64,000 nt of DNA from Olleya aquimaris (GTDB lineage: Bacteria; Bacteroidota; Bacteroidia; Flavobacteriales; Flavobacteriaceae), in assembly GCF_003259525.1 (NCBI RefSeq), contig NZ_QLLO01000001.1, positions 186,001 through 250,000 on the forward strand, in the 5' to 3' direction. Below, piece by piece: positions 42,958 through 60,524 of the stretch. The first letter of the stretch is position 1; each line of letters opens with the position of its first letter. The notes beneath the pieces are model-generated. The model ran no database searches. It was given only the letters and a program-made list of their open reading frames with translations, and had not been told where the DNA came from. Position numbers and translations under genes: made by a program.

Positions 42958-42969
42958 CAATAATTTACT

Positions 42970-43001
42970 AAAACCTTATTCAATTTGAATAAGGTTTTTT
43001 T
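42970..43001 (+). terminator. Rho-independent terminator of the atp operon
   Basis: A stem AAAACCTTATTCAA / TTGAATAAGGTTTT (42970-42998) with a tight centre, followed by T residues, 95 bases after the atpG stop. Confidence 0.88.
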
Positions 43002-55416: not shown

Positions 55417-56937
55417 CTAAAATCTATAACTAAATCCGGTGTATAACCCTAAGATGAAAGGGTTAAAATTACCAGACGTTTCATTGAATGCATTTAACTG
55501 GTATTTAAAAGTAGGCTCAAGATTAAACATTACAGTATTACTGAATTTGTAATTTAAACCAACTCCTATATTGGTACTAAAACTAAGCTCATTGATGTTG
55601 TTAGCTTCTCCAATTTTTGTTTTTACACCATTTAAATCGGATATAACTTCGTTGTCATTTAATACAAACGAACTAAAACCACCAATTAGATTAATACCAA
55701 AGCGTTTATCTAATATTTTATACTCTATTTCTAAAGGAATTTCATAGTAGCTCATACTTTGGTTAATTGCTGCGTTAAAGCTTTTACTAACTTCCATGAC
55801 ACTTACATTTTTAGCACTTATCATACTTAGTTCATGTCCATCACTTGTACTTGCAAAATCTACGTTTTTAAGAGTGGCAGTATTGTTAGAACTAGTTGTA
55901 AATTTTTCATAAACCACAACATCTTCTGTATTGTAGCTTAAATTTAAACGGTTAATACCAGATCTTACCGTTATTTTGTCATTTAAAGCATAGCCTACCT
56001 GAACTCCGTAACTGGTATTAACTTGTCCAGATTTTTTGTTTTGGTTAAATTGTTCGTGTATATGCGACCCTTGACCCATTGTGTTGTAATAAACAGGCGA
56101 AATGTTGGCATTTACACTCCACCTGTTATTTACTTCCTCTTTTTCAATAAGGTCTTCAGTATTGTTTTGGGCAATTGCATCTTCAATAGATGGTTTTTGC
56201 TGCTCTTTATTTTCTTCTTCTATTTTGTTTTGTGCAATAGCGTCATTAATACTATTGTTATTTTTAGTGTTGTCTAAATCTTTTTTATTGGTATTAAGAT
56301 TTGAATCTACAACCTCTGAATTTTTATTATTAATACTATTGCTGCTGTTTGTTGTATTTGCTGTGTTTGTATTTTGGCCAACCACATTAGTATTGGTATT
56401 GTTTGAAACAACACCATCTTGTTGCATTGTGCTTAATTTGTTTGTGTTGTTAGATAAGTTTGCTACACTACTAGAGGTTATATTAGTTTTATTGTAGTTG
56501 GTGTTTTTATCACTGGAATTAGAGTTTGAATTATCTGACTCCTCTGGAAGAGTATTAACAATTTGAGAATTATTGATTGTATTAGATTGATTTGTATTGT
56601 CTTGGCTATTAGAATTGTAGTCTTTTGAAGGAGTATTAAAAACATCCTTTGTCGTATTGTCTGTAGGTTGCGTATTATCTATATTTTTAGAATCTACAGT
56701 AGAAGGCATATTTGATGTATCTGTTGGGTTTAAAACAGATTTACTTAAAAACAGTAATAATGCTAAAGATGCTGCAATACCAGATAATTTTAACCATAAC
56801 GGAATTATAACAACCGGTTTATCCTGGTCTTTTTCTAATTGAGATTGAATGTTTTGCCAAACCTTTGGGTCTGGTTTGACTTCAAACTCTTTAAATTTCT
56901 CCTGAAATAGACGATCTATGTTCTTTTTTGTACTCAT
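55417..56937 (-). CDS. dual-membrane protein: anti-sigma-like N-terminus, inner-membrane helix, Asn-rich linker, outer-membrane beta-barrel
   Basis: The 506-residue product has a charged cytoplasmic N-terminus (about 1-44, with DRLFQEKFKEFEVKPDPKVW), one membrane helix (about 46-66), a low-complexity Asn/Thr/Ser-rich stretch (about 70-240), a short acidic region with two copies of DAIAQN (about 233 and 256), and a C-terminal region (about 272-506) of alternating hydrophobic strands that ends in aromatic YRF, the outer-membrane barrel signature. It starts on the base after the ECF sigma stop, the standard place for an anti-sigma factor. I infer a protein spanning both membranes that holds the sigma factor. 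I recall a reported Bacteroides family of dual-membrane anti-sigma factors with this layout. Confidence 0.8.
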   Translation of the reverse strand: MSTKKNIDRLFQEKFKEFEVKPDPKVWQNIQSQLEKDQDKPVVIIPLWLKLSGIAASLALLLFLSKSVLNPTDTSNMPSTVDSKNIDNTQPTDNTTKDVFNTPSKDYNSNSQDNTNQSNTINNSQIVNTLPEESDNSNSNSSDKNTNYNKTNITSSSVANLSNNTNKLSTMQQDGVVSNNTNTNVVGQNTNTANTTNSSNSINNKNSEVVDSNLNTNKKDLDNTKNNNSINDAIAQNKIEEENKEQQKPSIEDAIAQNNTEDLIEKEEVNNRWSVNANISPVYYNTMGQGSHIHEQFNQNKKSGQVNTSYGVQVGYALNDKITVRSGINRLNLSYNTEDVVVYEKFTTSSNNTATLKNVDFASTSDGHELSMISAKNVSVMEVSKSFNAAINQSMSYYEIPLEIEYKILDKRFGINLIGGFSSFVLNDNEVISDLNGVKTKIGEANNINELSFSTNIGVGLNYKFSNTVMFNLEPTFKYQLNAFNETSGNFNPFILGLYTGFSYRF

Positions 56938-57480
56938 TTATAACGATTGGGTATTTAATCCCATTTTATATTCAATTATTTTATCTTTTAATATTTGTCT
57001 AGCTCGTGCTAGATTAGATTTAGTTGTTCCAGATGTTATGGCTAACATGTCTGCAATTTCATTGTGTGAATAACCATCTAATACATATAAATTAAAAACC
57101 AATCTATATCTGTCAGGCAATTCTTGTATACATTTTAATAAAAAATCAATACTAACATCATCTTCTTCAATATCTACATTCTCGTCTACTATTGCTTCTT
57201 CATTTACTATGTCAAATACTTTTTGTGTTCTGTAACGTTGTAACACAGTATTTATAGTAATTCGTTTTAACCAACCTTCAAAACTACCTTTGTTATTGTA
57301 CTGTTTAATTTTATTAAAAATAGTTATAAATGCATCTTGTAAATTATCTTCAGCTTCTGCATAAGAGCTTGAATACTTTAAGCTAACAGAGAATAACTTG
57401 CTTGAAAAAAGCTGGTATAATTCGCTTTGTGCTTTGGTATCATTGGACTTGCATTTATGTATGAGTTGGTCTAAACTCAA
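56938..57480 (-). CDS. ECF-type RNA polymerase sigma factor
   Basis: A 180-residue sigma-70 family protein with region 2 (SSSYAEAEDNLQDAFITIFN, then KGSFEGWLKRITINTVLQRY) and region 4 (LPDRYRLVFNLYVLDGYSHN, then EIADMLAITSGTTKSNLARA), and nothing else, hence an ECF sigma. The start is a TTG at 57480. It is 31 bases after the lipoprotein stop and abuts the dual-membrane protein gene. An ECF-type promoter lies upstream of the lipoprotein gene, so the operon is probably autoregulated. Confidence 0.94.
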   Translation of the reverse strand: MSLDQLIHKCKSNDTKAQSELYQLFSSKLFSVSLKYSSSYAEAEDNLQDAFITIFNKIKQYNNKGSFEGWLKRITINTVLQRYRTQKVFDIVNEEAIVDENVDIEEDDVSIDFLLKCIQELPDRYRLVFNLYVLDGYSHNEIADMLAITSGTTKSNLARARQILKDKIIEYKMGLNTQSL

Positions 57481-57511: not shown

Positions 57512-57919
57512 TTACTCTTCTATTGGTACTTCCATTGTCAGGTAAATATCTTCGCCATCATCAGTTTCTCCTTGCCAGAATTTAAAAGTATAACTTCCAG
57601 TATCTGAAGCTAAAAACTCAAAAGAATTATTTGTAATTGCATTAATGGTTTGACAATTACCATTATCTGTTACAGAATTTATAACTGCAATAGTAATGAC
57701 GTTATCTGTTCTTACAGAATAAATATCATGAAAAACATGACAATCTGATGGTCTTAGATAAGTAAACTCTATTTGATAGGTTTCACCGTAAGTAAAGGAC
57801 TCTGGCATTGTCGCACTTATCACCGAAACAGGTTCTAAATAAGTTAGAGGAGGATTTTTATCCAAGCTACAGGATACCAATACAATAAGAGTAATTATAG
57901 CAGTAAAAAGCTTTTTCAT
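57512..57919 (-). CDS. hypothetical lipoprotein, first gene of the sigma operon
   Basis: From the ATG at 57919 the product is 135 residues with a lipoprotein signal MKKLFTAIITLIVLVSC. The mature part is beta-rich with two Cys (PSDCHVFHDIYSV and NGNCQTINAI) that could form a disulfide, and an acidic end. No family recognised. The frame is open to 57958 but that would place the start inside the predicted ECF promoter, so 57919 is preferred. Being the first gene of the operon, it may be a sensor component or an envelope-stress effector. Confidence 0.78.
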   Translation of the reverse strand: MKKLFTAIITLIVLVSCSLDKNPPLTYLEPVSVISATMPESFTYGETYQIEFTYLRPSDCHVFHDIYSVRTDNVITIAVINSVTDNGNCQTINAITNNSFEFLASDTGSYTFKFWQGETDDGEDIYLTMEVPIEE

Positions 57920-57949
57920 TTGTTTTATTAACTCAGGTTTGTTTATTGG

Positions 57950-57976
57950 TAGATGCATAAACTTTAAAAAGGTTGC
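57950..57976 (-). promoter_or_regulatory. predicted ECF sigma promoter of the sigma operon, GCAACC-N15-CATCTA
   Basis: On the minus strand GCAACC (57976-57971), 15 bases, then CATCTA (57955-57950). The AAC-type -35 and CxTCTA-type -10 with 15-16 spacing is the general ECF pattern. The surrounding 30 bases (57949-57978) match 59088-59117 on the other strand at 29 of 30 positions. The leader to the ATG at 57919 would be about 25 bases. Confidence 0.75.
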
Positions 57977-57983
57977 GTCATAA

Positions 57984-58013
57984 ATTAAAAAAATCCCGAA
58001 TATATCGGGATTT
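57984..58013 (-). terminator. recA terminator
   Basis: On the minus strand a 9-bp stem AAATCCCGA / TCGGGATTT (arms 57991-57999 and 58005-58013, five-base loop) followed by a T-run, immediately after the recA stop and before the ECF promoter. Confidence 0.9.
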
Positions 58014-58019
58014 TATGTT

Positions 58020-59024
58020 TTAAAGACTCTCTTTAATAGCGACTTTTATTTTTTCTTCCAGCTCCTCAAATAGTTCTGGATTATCTTTAATAATAAGCTT
58101 TACAGCATCTCTACCTTGTCCAAGCTTGGTGTCTTGATAACTAAACCATGACCCACTTTTTTTAATTATTTCTTTTTCTACAGCGACATCTAATATTTCT
58201 CCAACTTTACTAACACCTTCACCATACATAATATCAAACTCAGCCATTCTAAATGGTGGTGCTACTTTGTTTTTAACCACTTTAACTCGGGTTTTGTTAC
58301 CAAGTACTTCACCATTACTATCTTTAATTTGTGTAGATCGTCTAATATCCAAACGTACAGAAGCATAAAACTTAAGGGCATTACCACCAGTAGTCGTTTC
58401 TGGGTTACCAAACATAACACCAATTTTTTCACGTAACTGGTTAATAAATATTACAGTACAATTGGTTTTACTAATAGAAGCTGTTAGTTTTCTTAAAGCT
58501 TGAGACATTAAACGTGCATGTAATCCCATTTTAGAATCACCCATTTCTCCTTCAATTTCACTTTTAGGAGTTAATGCAGCAACCGAGTCAATAACAACTA
58601 TATCTATCGCTCCAGAACGAATTAAATTATCTGCAATTTCTAATGCTTGTTCACCATTATCAGGTTGAGAGATAATTAAATTATCAATATCAACTCCTAG
58701 TTTTTCGGCATAAAATCTATCAAAAGCATGCTCTGCATCAATAAAAGCAGCAATTCCACCCGCTTTTTGCGCTTCTGCAATAGCATGAAGTGTTAATGTT
58801 GTTTTACCAGAAGATTCTGGACCATATATCTCTATAACTCTACCTCTTGGGTATCCGCCAACGCCTAATGCAATATCTAAACCTAAAGACCCAGATGGGA
58901 TAGCATCTACATCCACCACAGCAGCGTCACTCATTTTCATTACTGTCCCTTTTCCGTAAGCTTTATCTAATTTATCTAATGTTAGCTGTAATGCTTTTAG
59001 TTTAGCGTCTTTTTCTTTACTCAT
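58020..59024 (-). CDS. recA: recombinase RecA
   Basis: RecA carries out homologous strand exchange and SOS induction. The 334-residue protein has the Walker [17 protein letters not shown] near residue 68, FIDAEHAFD, the Walker B region [15 protein letters not shown], and the L1/L2 DNA-binding loops [14 protein letters not shown] and [16 protein letters not shown]. It is full length, on the minus strand, closed by its own terminator. No clear LexA-type or housekeeping promoter was found in the upstream 60 bases by eye. Confidence 0.98.
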
Positions 59025-59089
59025 ACGTCTTTTTTATTATAATTTCTATGCTAAAATACTACTTTTTTAAAGAAATTTAATTTTCTCAC

Positions 59090-59116
59090 GCAACCTTTTT
59101 AAAGTTTTTGCATCTA
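59090..59116 (+). promoter_or_regulatory. predicted ECF sigma promoter of a short transcript, GCAACC-N15-CATCTA
   Basis: GCAACC (59090-59095), 15 bases, CATCTA (59111-59116). The 30 bases 59088-59117 match the sigma operon promoter region at 29 of 30 positions, although the flanks differ. Transcription would start near 59123 and run into the terminator at 59349. Confidence 0.72.
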
Positions 59117-59200
59117 CTTATTGAAGTGGAGAAATTATGCTATGAAAAAGAATTATTTAATCCGCTTTTTAAAATGTTAATCCTTGATAATTTTTAAGGT

Positions 59201-59293
59201 ATGAAATATTTAAAAAGATTAGTTTTTACAAAAACATTAGGCGTTTCAGTTGCTATTCTACTTAATAGCAGTTGTAAAGCCGATGGAGGTTAA
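59201..59293 (+). CDS. tiny lipoprotein-like ORF (30 residues)
   Basis: ATG at 59201 to TAA at 59291-59293. The product starts with basic residues (MKYLKRLVFTKT), has a hydrophobic stretch (LGVSVAILL) and ends SSCKADGG. It reads as a lipoprotein signal with the Cys at residue 25, leaving a mature peptide of only six residues; the residues before the Cys (NSS) are a weak lipobox. It is preceded by the predicted ECF promoter about 80 bases upstream and followed by a hairpin that begins at its stop codon. It may be translated, or the RNA itself may be functional. Confidence 0.45.
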   Translation: MKYLKRLVFTKTLGVSVAILLNSSCKADGG

Positions 59294-59341
59294 CTCGTAA
59301 CATTTTTTAATCCAAAACATTAAAAAATTATTAACGAGTTA
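59291..59341 (+). repeat. long imperfect hairpin at the end of the tiny ORF
   Basis: Outer arms TAACTCGT / ACGAGTTA (59291-59298 and 59334-59341) and inner arms ATTTTTTAAT / ATTAAAAAAT (59302-59311 and 59319-59328) pair, with a one-base bulge, a small internal loop and a seven-base terminal loop CCAAAAC. The stem contains the stop codon of the ORF at 59201, so translation and folding would compete. Confidence 0.7.
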
Positions 59342-59348
59342 GTCTATT

Positions 59349-59383
59349 AAAAGTCCTTTGCAAAGCGTAAAGGACTTTTTTTT
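59349..59383 (+). terminator. Rho-independent terminator of the short transcript
   Basis: An 11-bp stem AAAAGTCCTTT / AAAGGACTTTT (59349-59359 and 59369-59379) with a nine-base loop and continuing T-run. It follows no conventional gene, which is why it points to a short transcript upstream. Confidence 0.9.
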
Positions 59384-59392
59384 ACCCTTAAA

Positions 59393-59422
59393 TTGTCTAG
59401 GTCACTAAAAATAATACCTTTG
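59393..59422 (+). promoter_or_regulatory. promoter for trhO, TTG-N19-TACCTTTG
   Basis: TTG (59393-59395), exactly 19 bases, then TACCTTTG (59415-59422): a full match to the Bacteroidota consensus, 37 bases before the trhO ATG and just after the terminator. Confidence 0.75.
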
Positions 59423-59459: not shown

Positions 59460-60524
59460 ATGCAACTGTACAACAAATTAAGCGCTAATGAAAGAGCAGA
59501 ACTTATTAAACAAGCAGGTAAAGAACGTTTAACACTATCGTTTTACCAGTATGCTCACATTAGCAATCCACAAGAATTTAGAGACCAATTATTTATTAAA
59601 TGGGACAGTTTAGACGTCCTAGGTCGTATTTATGTCGCAACCGAAGGGATTAATGCACAACTATCTCTTCCAGCAGATCATTTTGAAGCGTTTAAAAACC
59701 ATTTAGATAGTATCGATTTTTTAAAAGATGTTAGGCTTAACATTGCAATAGAACAAGATAATATGTCTTTTTTAAAGCTTAAAGTTAAAGTCCGAGAAAA
59801 AATTGTAGCAGATGGTTTAAACGATGACACTTTTGATGTCACTAATAAAGGCGTACACCTATCTGCTAAAGAATTTAATGATATGCTTGACAATCCAAAC
59901 ACCGTTTGTGTGGACATGCGTAATCATTACGAAAGCGAAATTGGGCATTTTGATGGAGCAGTAACACCAGATGTGGACACCTTTAGAGAATCTTTAGATA
60001 TCATAGAAGAAGATTTACGAGATCACAAGGAAGATAAAAACTTACTAATGTATTGTACAGGTGGTATACGTTGCGAAAAAGCAAGTGCCTATTATAAACA
60101 TAAAGGGTTTAAAAATGTCTATCAGTTGGAAGGTGGAATTATAGAATATACCAGACAAGTTAACGCAGAAGGCATCGAAAATAAATTTATTGGAAAGAAC
60201 TTTGTATTTGATGAGCGTCGTGCCGAAAAAATTAGTGACGATGTCATCGCGAAATGCCACCAATGTGGTAAACCTTGTGATACACATGTAAATTGTGCTA
60301 ATGATGCGTGCCATTTACTATTTATACAATGTGAAGACTGTAAAACAGAGATGGATAACTGCTGTTCTTCGACCTGTAAAGACATACACGCACTACCTTA
60401 TGAAGAACAAAAAGCTCTTAGAAAAGGACAAGGAAATAGTAACGATATCTTTAAAAAAGGACGTGCAGATCACTTACCATATAAAAAAGATTTACGTAAT
60501 ATTTTTGAAACACTTAAAAAGTAA
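59460..60524 (+). CDS. trhO: tRNA uridine(34) hydroxylase TrhO (rhodanese family)
   Basis: TrhO hydroxylates U34 of certain tRNAs to ho5U using oxygen. The 354-residue protein has the N-terminal domain with YVATEGINAQLSLP near residue 61, a rhodanese domain with VCVDMRNHYESEIGHFDGA near residue 150 and the active-site loop MYCTGGIRCEKA near residue 200, and a C-terminal Cys-rich part (CHQCGKPCDTHVNC and further CxxC pairs) that probably binds zinc. It is a single-gene unit with its own promoter and terminator. Confidence 0.94.
   Translation: MQLYNKLSANERAELIKQAGKERLTLSFYQYAHISNPQEFRDQLFIKWDSLDVLGRIYVATEGINAQLSLPADHFEAFKNHLDSIDFLKDVRLNIAIEQDNMSFLKLKVKVREKIVADGLNDDTFDVTNKGVHLSAKEFNDMLDNPNTVCVDMRNHYESEIGHFDGAVTPDVDTFRESLDIIEEDLRDHKEDKNLLMYCTGGIRCEKASAYYKHKGFKNVYQLEGGIIEYTRQVNAEGIENKFIGKNFVFDERRAEKISDDVIAKCHQCGKPCDTHVNCANDACHLLFIQCEDCKTEMDNCCSSTCKDIHALPYEEQKALRKGQGNSNDIFKKGRADHLPYKKDLRNIFETLKK

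Follow-up and report, generated by a model that had tools for sequence, protein, structure and literature searches.

Candidate ECF promoters flank recA in Olleya aquimaris and precede a Dma-like sigma operon and a short transcript encoding a conserved 30-residue peptide

Introduction

MicA and RybB of E. coli are Sigma-E-dependent small RNAs, and SgrS/SgrT is a single stress-induced transcript which is both the mRNA of a small protein and a regulatory RNA. Dma anti-sigma factors, a class described only recently, are believed to relay an outer-membrane signal to the cytosol; little is known of their regulons. According to the available portion of the source, Dma2 of the Dma2/Das2 system of Bacteroides thetaiotaomicron is an anti-sigma beside an ECF21 sigma (PMC13088901). 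The SM6 promoters of F. psychrophilum are, as far as the available sections of the study tell, of ECF type: one has a mapped transcription start site upstream of yceA/trhO, another drives the small RNA Rfp11, and another precedes an ECF sigma/anti-sigma pair (PMC9723704). FoxJ and FoxI of Fusobacterium nucleatum are, in the excerpt at hand, Sigma-E-dependent small RNAs, FoxJ having once been misannotated as a 5' UTR (PMC11005410).

A locus around recA in a window of Olleya aquimaris DNA (the whole 64,000-nucleotide stretch that was analysed, positions 186,001 to 250,000 of contig NZ_QLLO01000001.1; coordinates below count from its first letter) shares features with each of these systems. As in the accessible text on Dma/Das, adjacent genes encode an ECF sigma and a putative anti-sigma with an N-terminal domain, a membrane helix, a long disordered tether and a C-terminal barrel, and the likeness extends to the predicted control of its own operon by the sigma and to a link with surface lipoproteins and vesicles (PMC13088901). 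Unlike the Dma/Das system as far as that text describes it, the operon here opens with a lipoprotein of no known family and is a neighbour of recA, and a short RNA/peptide transcript would arise from a second promoter; the text makes no mention of these for Dma/Das (PMC13088901). The SM6 promoters are similar by description in being of ECF type and preceding yceA/trhO, a small RNA and a sigma/anti-sigma pair, whereas the sections available report a CGT -10 box and type IX secretion genes and describe neither a recA-flanking promoter pair nor a peptide (PMC9723704). A short terminated transcript under an envelope ECF sigma recalls FoxJ/FoxI (PMC11005410, as excerpted); unlike FoxJ/FoxI and MicA/RybB, with which it is compared by description, the transcript here encodes a conserved peptide. 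Its proposed design is that of SgrS/SgrT, its RNA activity being a prediction.

In the literature searched, the string CKADGG was absent, and no title or abstract opening in the literature on ECF sigma factors, small RNAs, Dma and flavobacteria names such an element; the portions seen of PMC12045153 and PMC12596196 contain nothing on it. The 30-residue peptide is a previously unnamed one, conserved in many related bacteria. This peptide, the Dma-type anti-sigma, a wider regulon and a leader element in the RNA were all overlooked in a preliminary description of the window.

Two Promoter Copies on Either Side of recA

The features around recA are as follows.

57949..57978, minus strand: candidate ECF-type promoter of the sigma operon
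57990..58014, both strands: bidirectional terminator-like hairpin in the gap between the operon promoter and recA, from a terminator scan
58020..59024, minus strand: recA, between both promoters (Pfam RecA)
59088..59117, plus strand: second candidate ECF-type promoter, divergent from recA and driving the short transcript

Minus-strand positions 57978-57949 and plus-strand positions 59088-59117 are identical at 29 of 30 positions, and their flanks differ, as the preliminary description had reported; its reading of both copies as GCAACC-N15-CATCTA holds as well and can be refined to GCAACC-TTTT-N11-CATCTA. In a scan of 30-mer pairs on both strands of the 64 kb, using exact 10-mer seeds occurring fewer than 60 times, the pair was unique at 27 or more matches of 30 apart from a self-palindrome. 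The latter, at 42969-42999, is a near-perfect 30-base palindrome, 28 of whose 30 positions agree with its reverse complement. As both promoters point away from recA, recA was rejected as a regulon member.

The near-identity of the copies, which the preliminary description had emphasised, is borne out across relatives for the boxes and the T-run and not for the spacer. In 65 relatives, the two copies share on average 6.4 of the 11 variable spacer bases, and 10 or 11 of the 11 are alike in nine loci only, so that near-identity is no general rule. Within-genome agreement (6.38/11) exceeds that to the nearest relative (5.82/11; Wilcoxon p 4e-4; 37 loci up, 14 down, 14 ties), related loci not being independent and shared ancestry being uncorrected in this statistic. 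Six loci (L154, L155, L176, L185, L191 and L192) have identical 15-base spacers at both recA-flanking promoters, and these spacers differ between several of the species. Spacer agreement among these non-independent loci suggests that the inverted copies may occasionally exchange sequence.

Motif Distribution and Candidate Regulon

The motif GCAACCTTTT-N11-CATCTA is rare, gives few matches in reversed form, and goes with the presence of this sigma gene across genomes. The preliminary description had proposed searching for it in the genome and in relatives; in such a search, near-exact sites are rare and their counts follow the sigma orthologue. In the whole genome, the exact form GCAACC-N14-17-CATCTA occurs four times (reversed control, 2). 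With the T-run added and one mismatch allowed, six occurrences are present in 2.95 Mb (reversed control, 0), and with three mismatches there are 45 against 37 reversed, so only near-exact sites stand out. Of the six sites, one belongs to the sigma operon and one to the short transcript beyond recA. Two stand ahead of secreted-protein genes, which follow at 18 and 38 nt, and one ahead of a lipoprotein gene, which follows at 20 nt; the sixth has no ORF of at least 60 codons starting within 260 nt. Genus mates have sites similar to this last, one-mismatch one (G000:C9:126175-126201), and there a barrel-type protein follows at 48-52 nt.

Among 60 genomes, the 34 with a sigma orthologue (at least 198 bits, a cut chosen after seeing the table) contain 102 motif matches and the 26 others four, the reversed motif giving four and five, respectively. 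At least one match is found in 30 of the 34 sigma-bearing genomes; G012 and G034-G036 have none. Twenty regions were fetched, comprising 19 of the 20 genus-mate sites away from recA (G003:C18:23283 was left out) and one site of the own genome. An ORF of at least 60 codons lies downstream in 18 of them, at 14-52 nt in 17 and at 171 nt in one, the own-genome region being one of the two lacking it. All 18 ORFs begin with signal or lipoprotein sequences and were read by eye as lipoprotein, barrel or signal-peptide proteins. In summary, a -35 AAC and a -10 box recur genome-wide at fixed spacing and follow the sigma gene, as in ECF promoters.

In 80 named loci found by the peptide alone (see below), the far-side promoter lies upstream of the peptide in 79, the eightieth, L198, differing by one -10 base, and the operon promoter is present as well in 67. 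The proposal of an autoregulated sigma operon with a target beyond recA is thereby supported, with the promoter pair recurring around recA in many genera. We consider it highly probable, from these sequence comparisons, that both copies are promoters of one ECF sigma and that the operon is autoregulated; both would then be sigma-dependent. That the 30-base pair is instead a dispersed inverted repeat or a chance similarity is extremely unlikely. The species with identical spacers and the slightly greater similarity of own pairs than of nearest relatives, as gene conversion gives, are what such a repeat would predict, but the spacers diverge freely as both boxes stay, the six genomic sites precede different genes or transcripts, and the reversed motif is nearly absent. 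On the motif counts and the genes downstream of the sites, a repeat unrelated to promoters was rejected.

At G000:C2:117084-121385 (L007, L008, L020, L021), a second ECF sigma gene is accompanied by four sites of the form GCAAGTTTTT-N11-CATCT(A/C) within about 4 kb, one of them having ACAAGT. The cluster downstream of this gene presumably encodes EF-hand-, CotH- and YHYH-like proteins, as judged by eye. GCAAGT in place of GCAACC fits a sigma-specific -35 box, and the second ECF system fits a separate promoter specificity.

The Sigma Operon

Three genes follow the operon promoter.

57512..57919, minus strand: first operon gene, an all-beta lipoprotein whose signal sequence ends SC-SLDK
56938..57480, minus strand: ECF sigma factor with a TTG start (Pfam Sigma70_r2 and Sigma70_r4_2)
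55417..56937, minus strand: Dma-like anti-sigma of 506 residues, from predicted structure

The probable start of the first ORF is 57919, which lies 30 nt beyond the -10 box; the start given by the ORF caller, 57958, falls inside the promoter. A homologue occupies this position in 76 of the 80 loci. Its domain (57515-57889) is predicted by AlphaFold to form eight strands (pLDDT 92, alignment of 39). The Pfam search returned no family and the PDB fold search no match at E<=0.001, on which grounds a NigD-like identity was rejected. The second protein, of 180 aa, contains sigma-70 regions 2 and 4 only, both above cut-off, as in ECF sigma factors. Its gene seems to begin with TTG at 57480, and the same TTG context is seen in the divergent relatives L214 and L216. 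Its Dma-like neighbour would place it, by analogy, in the ECF21 group.

The AlphaFold model of the third protein (alignment of 20; pLDDT 53 overall, about 70-92 in most barrel strands) has two N-terminal helices (residues 5-16 and 24-35) followed by one of membrane type (47-69). Residues 70-249 are modelled with low confidence, the barrel strands lie within residues 273-505, and the barrel has OmpA/OmpW-type PDB matches (E 2e-7). A membrane helix, a disordered tether and a C-terminal outer-membrane barrel, the architecture of the Dma family, are thus present in the predicted model. The 506-residue protein is therefore regarded as a putative Dma-like anti-sigma, with the domain order given in the available part of PMC13088901.

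A Conserved 30-Residue Peptide

59201..59293, plus strand: 30-codon ORF, MKYLKRLVFTKTLGVSVAILLNSSCKADGG, from peptide family and codon-position bias

The preliminary description had held that the far promoter copy precedes no ordinary gene. This statement does not stand, as a 30-codon ORF, whose product ends CKADGG, begins there with an ATG 84 nt beyond the -10 box. When named genomes were scanned with the peptide alone, 103 stretches emerged, of which 95 were confirmed and 80 kept. In these loci, a recA match starts within 550 nt in 79 (at 4.5 kb in L164), trhO is matched in 77, some loci having no trhO match nearby, and the sigma operon lies beyond recA in 76. Of the four loci without the operon, L138 and L164 have none within 5 kb, and L125 and L169 comprise just 1.0-1.2 kb of upstream sequence. 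The closest named loci with the same peptide and gene order are from Olleya species.

Among 397 genomes of the family, 80 have a peptide match at E<=0.01; in 66 the E-value falls below 0.001, including one whose match has an internal stop. Nine of 395 class genomes have a match at E<=0.01, the convincing ones being three family members only; that in G163 lies inside a long frame, and five outside the family are weak (E 0.001-0.007), so an occurrence of the peptide beyond the family was not accepted. None of 36 diverse members matches Pfam or NCBIfam at E<=0.01.

Relatives collected on the conditions of a [DE]GG-stop and a downstream TTAG[TC]C (the 3' arm of the hairpin described below) provide 98 distinct peptides of 28-30 residues. 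In 197 pairs of 30-residue peptides with at least 80% identity, differences at codon positions 1, 2 and 3 number 607, 419 and 1391. Third-position changes dominate, and therefore the ORF is very likely translated; from this pattern, we are confident that the peptide would be made in the cell.

The peptide has a K/R-rich start, a central hydrophobic stretch and a strongly conserved C-terminal tail. Its centre is variable, the maximum hydrophobicity over 15 residues ranging from 0.07 to 2.52 and being weak in divergent members. In two of 92 members (L211:1731, minus; L212:1949, plus), the conserved Cys is replaced by Phe, and therefore it is not strictly required. A lipobox has an L/V/I/A-type residue at -3 before the Cys. 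A lipoprotein identity was rejected, as Asn stands at -3 in 84 of 92 members and the Cys is Phe in two; one divergent member, L210 (VSSC), would fit the lipobox.

Hairpin, Terminator and trhO

59288..59344, plus strand: predicted RNA hairpin with the last Gly codon and the stop codon in its 5' arm, from fold and covariation
59349..59383, plus strand: putative intrinsic terminator of the short transcript, with a 13-pair stem and T-run in fold and sequence; the terminator scan did not list it
59415..59422, plus strand: TACCTTTG, likely the housekeeping -7 box of trhO
59460..60524, plus strand: trhO/yceA, a rhodanese-domain gene, after the terminator (Pfam UPF0176_N, Rhodanese)

The region comprising the ORF, hairpin and terminator has a fold z of -5.4. 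The hairpin is predicted to fold in all 98 relatives, its 3' arm being a collection condition. Across 11 pairs counted in 68 of the 98 sequences, after removal of near duplicates and long loops, 90.8% are standard pairs and double changes number 15 against 4.2 in shuffles, whereas slid controls are at most 48% paired. Given the hairpin set, RNAalifold proposed another stem of four pairs and did not recover the long helix, whose loops misalign; pair counting on the named structure was used in its place. An automatic terminator check was positive in 59 of the 98, within the short stretch kept. The window and seven loci gave no Rfam match at the gathering threshold, and so no known RNA family was assigned.

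The trhO gene is not thought to be part of the unit. Reading from the far promoter into trhO is unlikely because the terminator intervenes and trhO has its own box at 59415, which was assigned by comparison with the housekeeping -7 consensus TAnnTTTG, as given in the sections available of PMC9723704.

The Leader Element

59126..59148, plus strand: conserved leader GTGGAGAAATTATGCTATGAAAA of the RNA, 22-24 nt after the -10 box in most loci

The leader has the consensus GGRAAA-N5-TTGCTATGAAA, about 22 nt past the -10 box, in a logo of 104 unique rows that were picked by the element's own anchor and are thus partly anchored by selection. Promoter plus leader occur in 90 of 397 family genomes (reversed control, 0), some of which resemble ordinary gene starts by context. 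Twenty leader-positive genomes without a peptide match were inspected. All 20 of these loci, chosen for having the leader, adjoin recA; a scan found an intact [DE]GG peptide in none of them, some contain decayed peptide copies, and GAYTARCT follows soon after the leader in 10. Among six unselected peptide-less relatives with the far-side promoter, the leader is present in G015 and G017, variant in G026, and absent from G018, G023 and G027. The retention of the leader may partly reflect recency because several peptide-less copies (L272, L288 and L206) resemble decaying peptide genes by eye.

In twelve compact RNAs, the leader is followed by a T-run at 102-108 nt, and most of these RNAs carry a predicted terminator-type hairpin; the L279 stretch is truncated at 71. 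GCTATG is predicted to be mostly unpaired in 21 of 26 compact RNAs and in 54 of 71 peptide-bearing RNAs, and GACUAAC to be exposed in nine of the 11 RNAs having it. ATG-to-GTG swaps occur in 11 of the 104 leader rows. A conserved leader peptide at GCTATGAAA was rejected, as the frames differ in length and sequence when compared by eye.

Parsimony on a recA tree gives eight changes for the leader and 23 for the peptide; the tree comprises 126 of 128 loci with a midpoint root, 65 of its 121 inner branches are open, and eight leader states were set by hand. In this tree, a group of ten rows is without the leader, seven of them with the peptide and one (L225) without far-side sequence. These changes and the leaderless peptide group suggest that the peptide may be older than the leader and that the leader can outlive the peptide.

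Messenger, Regulatory RNA or Both

The transcript has, by prediction, the attributes of a small RNA, i.e., its own promoter and terminator and a conserved structured RNA. In ten genus genomes, complements of the leader seed number 46 against 47 for the reversed form (one form of the seed). For the genus form, there are 63 against 28 for a reversed control that holds a CG; the RNA gene itself accounts for nine of the 63, and base composition predicts about 50. As there is no clear excess of complements in these genomes, no target is named. On balance, the transcript appears slightly favoured to have an RNA function of its own, and that it base-pairs with envelope mRNAs is rather doubtful.

The transcript could quite possibly, if short of probably, be a plain mRNA of a tiny stress peptide, with the leader and hairpin acting in translation or stability and without a trans-acting RNA. 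The strong codon-position bias is in keeping with this, and the start-codon-like ATG/GTG changes hint at a start codon in the leader and not at an RNA seed; the leader ATG is indeed the peptide's own start in L152, L158, L160 and L199, and one lineage group has the peptide without the leader. However, the leader keeps mostly to a distance of 22-24 nt from the promoter, whereas that of the peptide start varies between 25 and 251 nt across loci, the leader is found in RNAs of about 100 nt that have no intact peptide, and the frames opening at its ATG vary as described above. These compact RNAs, with their predicted stem-loops and exposed UUGCUAUG and GACUAAC, speak for the opposite extreme, a transcript that is mainly regulatory RNA and whose ORF is a lineage-specific passenger, as does the repeated loss of the peptide implied by its 23 changes on the weakly supported recA tree. 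This reading is improbable, since the 98 distinct peptide sequences all have 28-30 residues, their genes differ mostly at third positions, and the peptide is present in leaderless lineages.

It is likewise unlikely that the peptide is a processed signal or modified peptide with a C-terminal CKxDGG, released or matured in the envelope and perhaps sensed as feedback by the anti-sigma barrel. Its signal-like build and its co-inheritance with the sigma/anti-sigma operon would suit this role, but none of the neighbours (recA, trhO and the operon) encodes a recognised modifying enzyme, divergent peptides are weakly hydrophobic, and the Cys is not invariant.

Proposed Mechanism and Biological Meaning

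In the preferred reading, that of a dual-function transcript within an envelope response, the Dma-like anti-sigma, modelled as reaching from the cytosol to the outer membrane, would hold the ECF sigma and would release it on an outer-membrane disturbance, the presumed trigger. The freed sigma would transcribe its own operon (lipoprotein, sigma and anti-sigma) and a few genes for surface lipoproteins, barrels and secreted proteins, together with the stand-alone transcript of about 260 nt beyond recA. This transcript would carry the leader near its 5' end and a hairpin closing over the stop codon, and would be translated into the cationic 30-residue peptide ending CKADGG. It would most likely be a dual-function RNA, combining the small-RNA arm of the envelope response with a membrane-directed peptide.

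As a whole, a sigma/Dma envelope response that regulates itself and includes a short transcript serving as mRNA and probably as regulatory RNA is regarded as a likely explanation. Comparison among relatives establishes, at the level of sequence, the promoter pair, peptide coding, hairpin, leader and operon architecture; from these we infer sigma dependence, RNA activity, and the location and action of the peptide. Tentatively, the element may represent a Bacteroidota dual-function transcript. Its RNA arm, the leader UUGCUAUGAAA presented in a loop or as a single strand, and its peptide arm of 30 residues ending in CKxDGG would share one molecule and be separable in evolution, the peptide possibly reporting back to the membrane-spanning anti-sigma.

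For Dma systems, with their little-known regulons, sequence alone here supplies a motif, a candidate regulon and a conserved RNA/peptide output in many marine genera. Sigma dependence, the make-up of the regulon and what the peptide does can therefore be tested directly. Should the RNA act in trans, this would be another pairing of envelope sigma factors with small RNAs, as in Proteobacteria and Fusobacteria.
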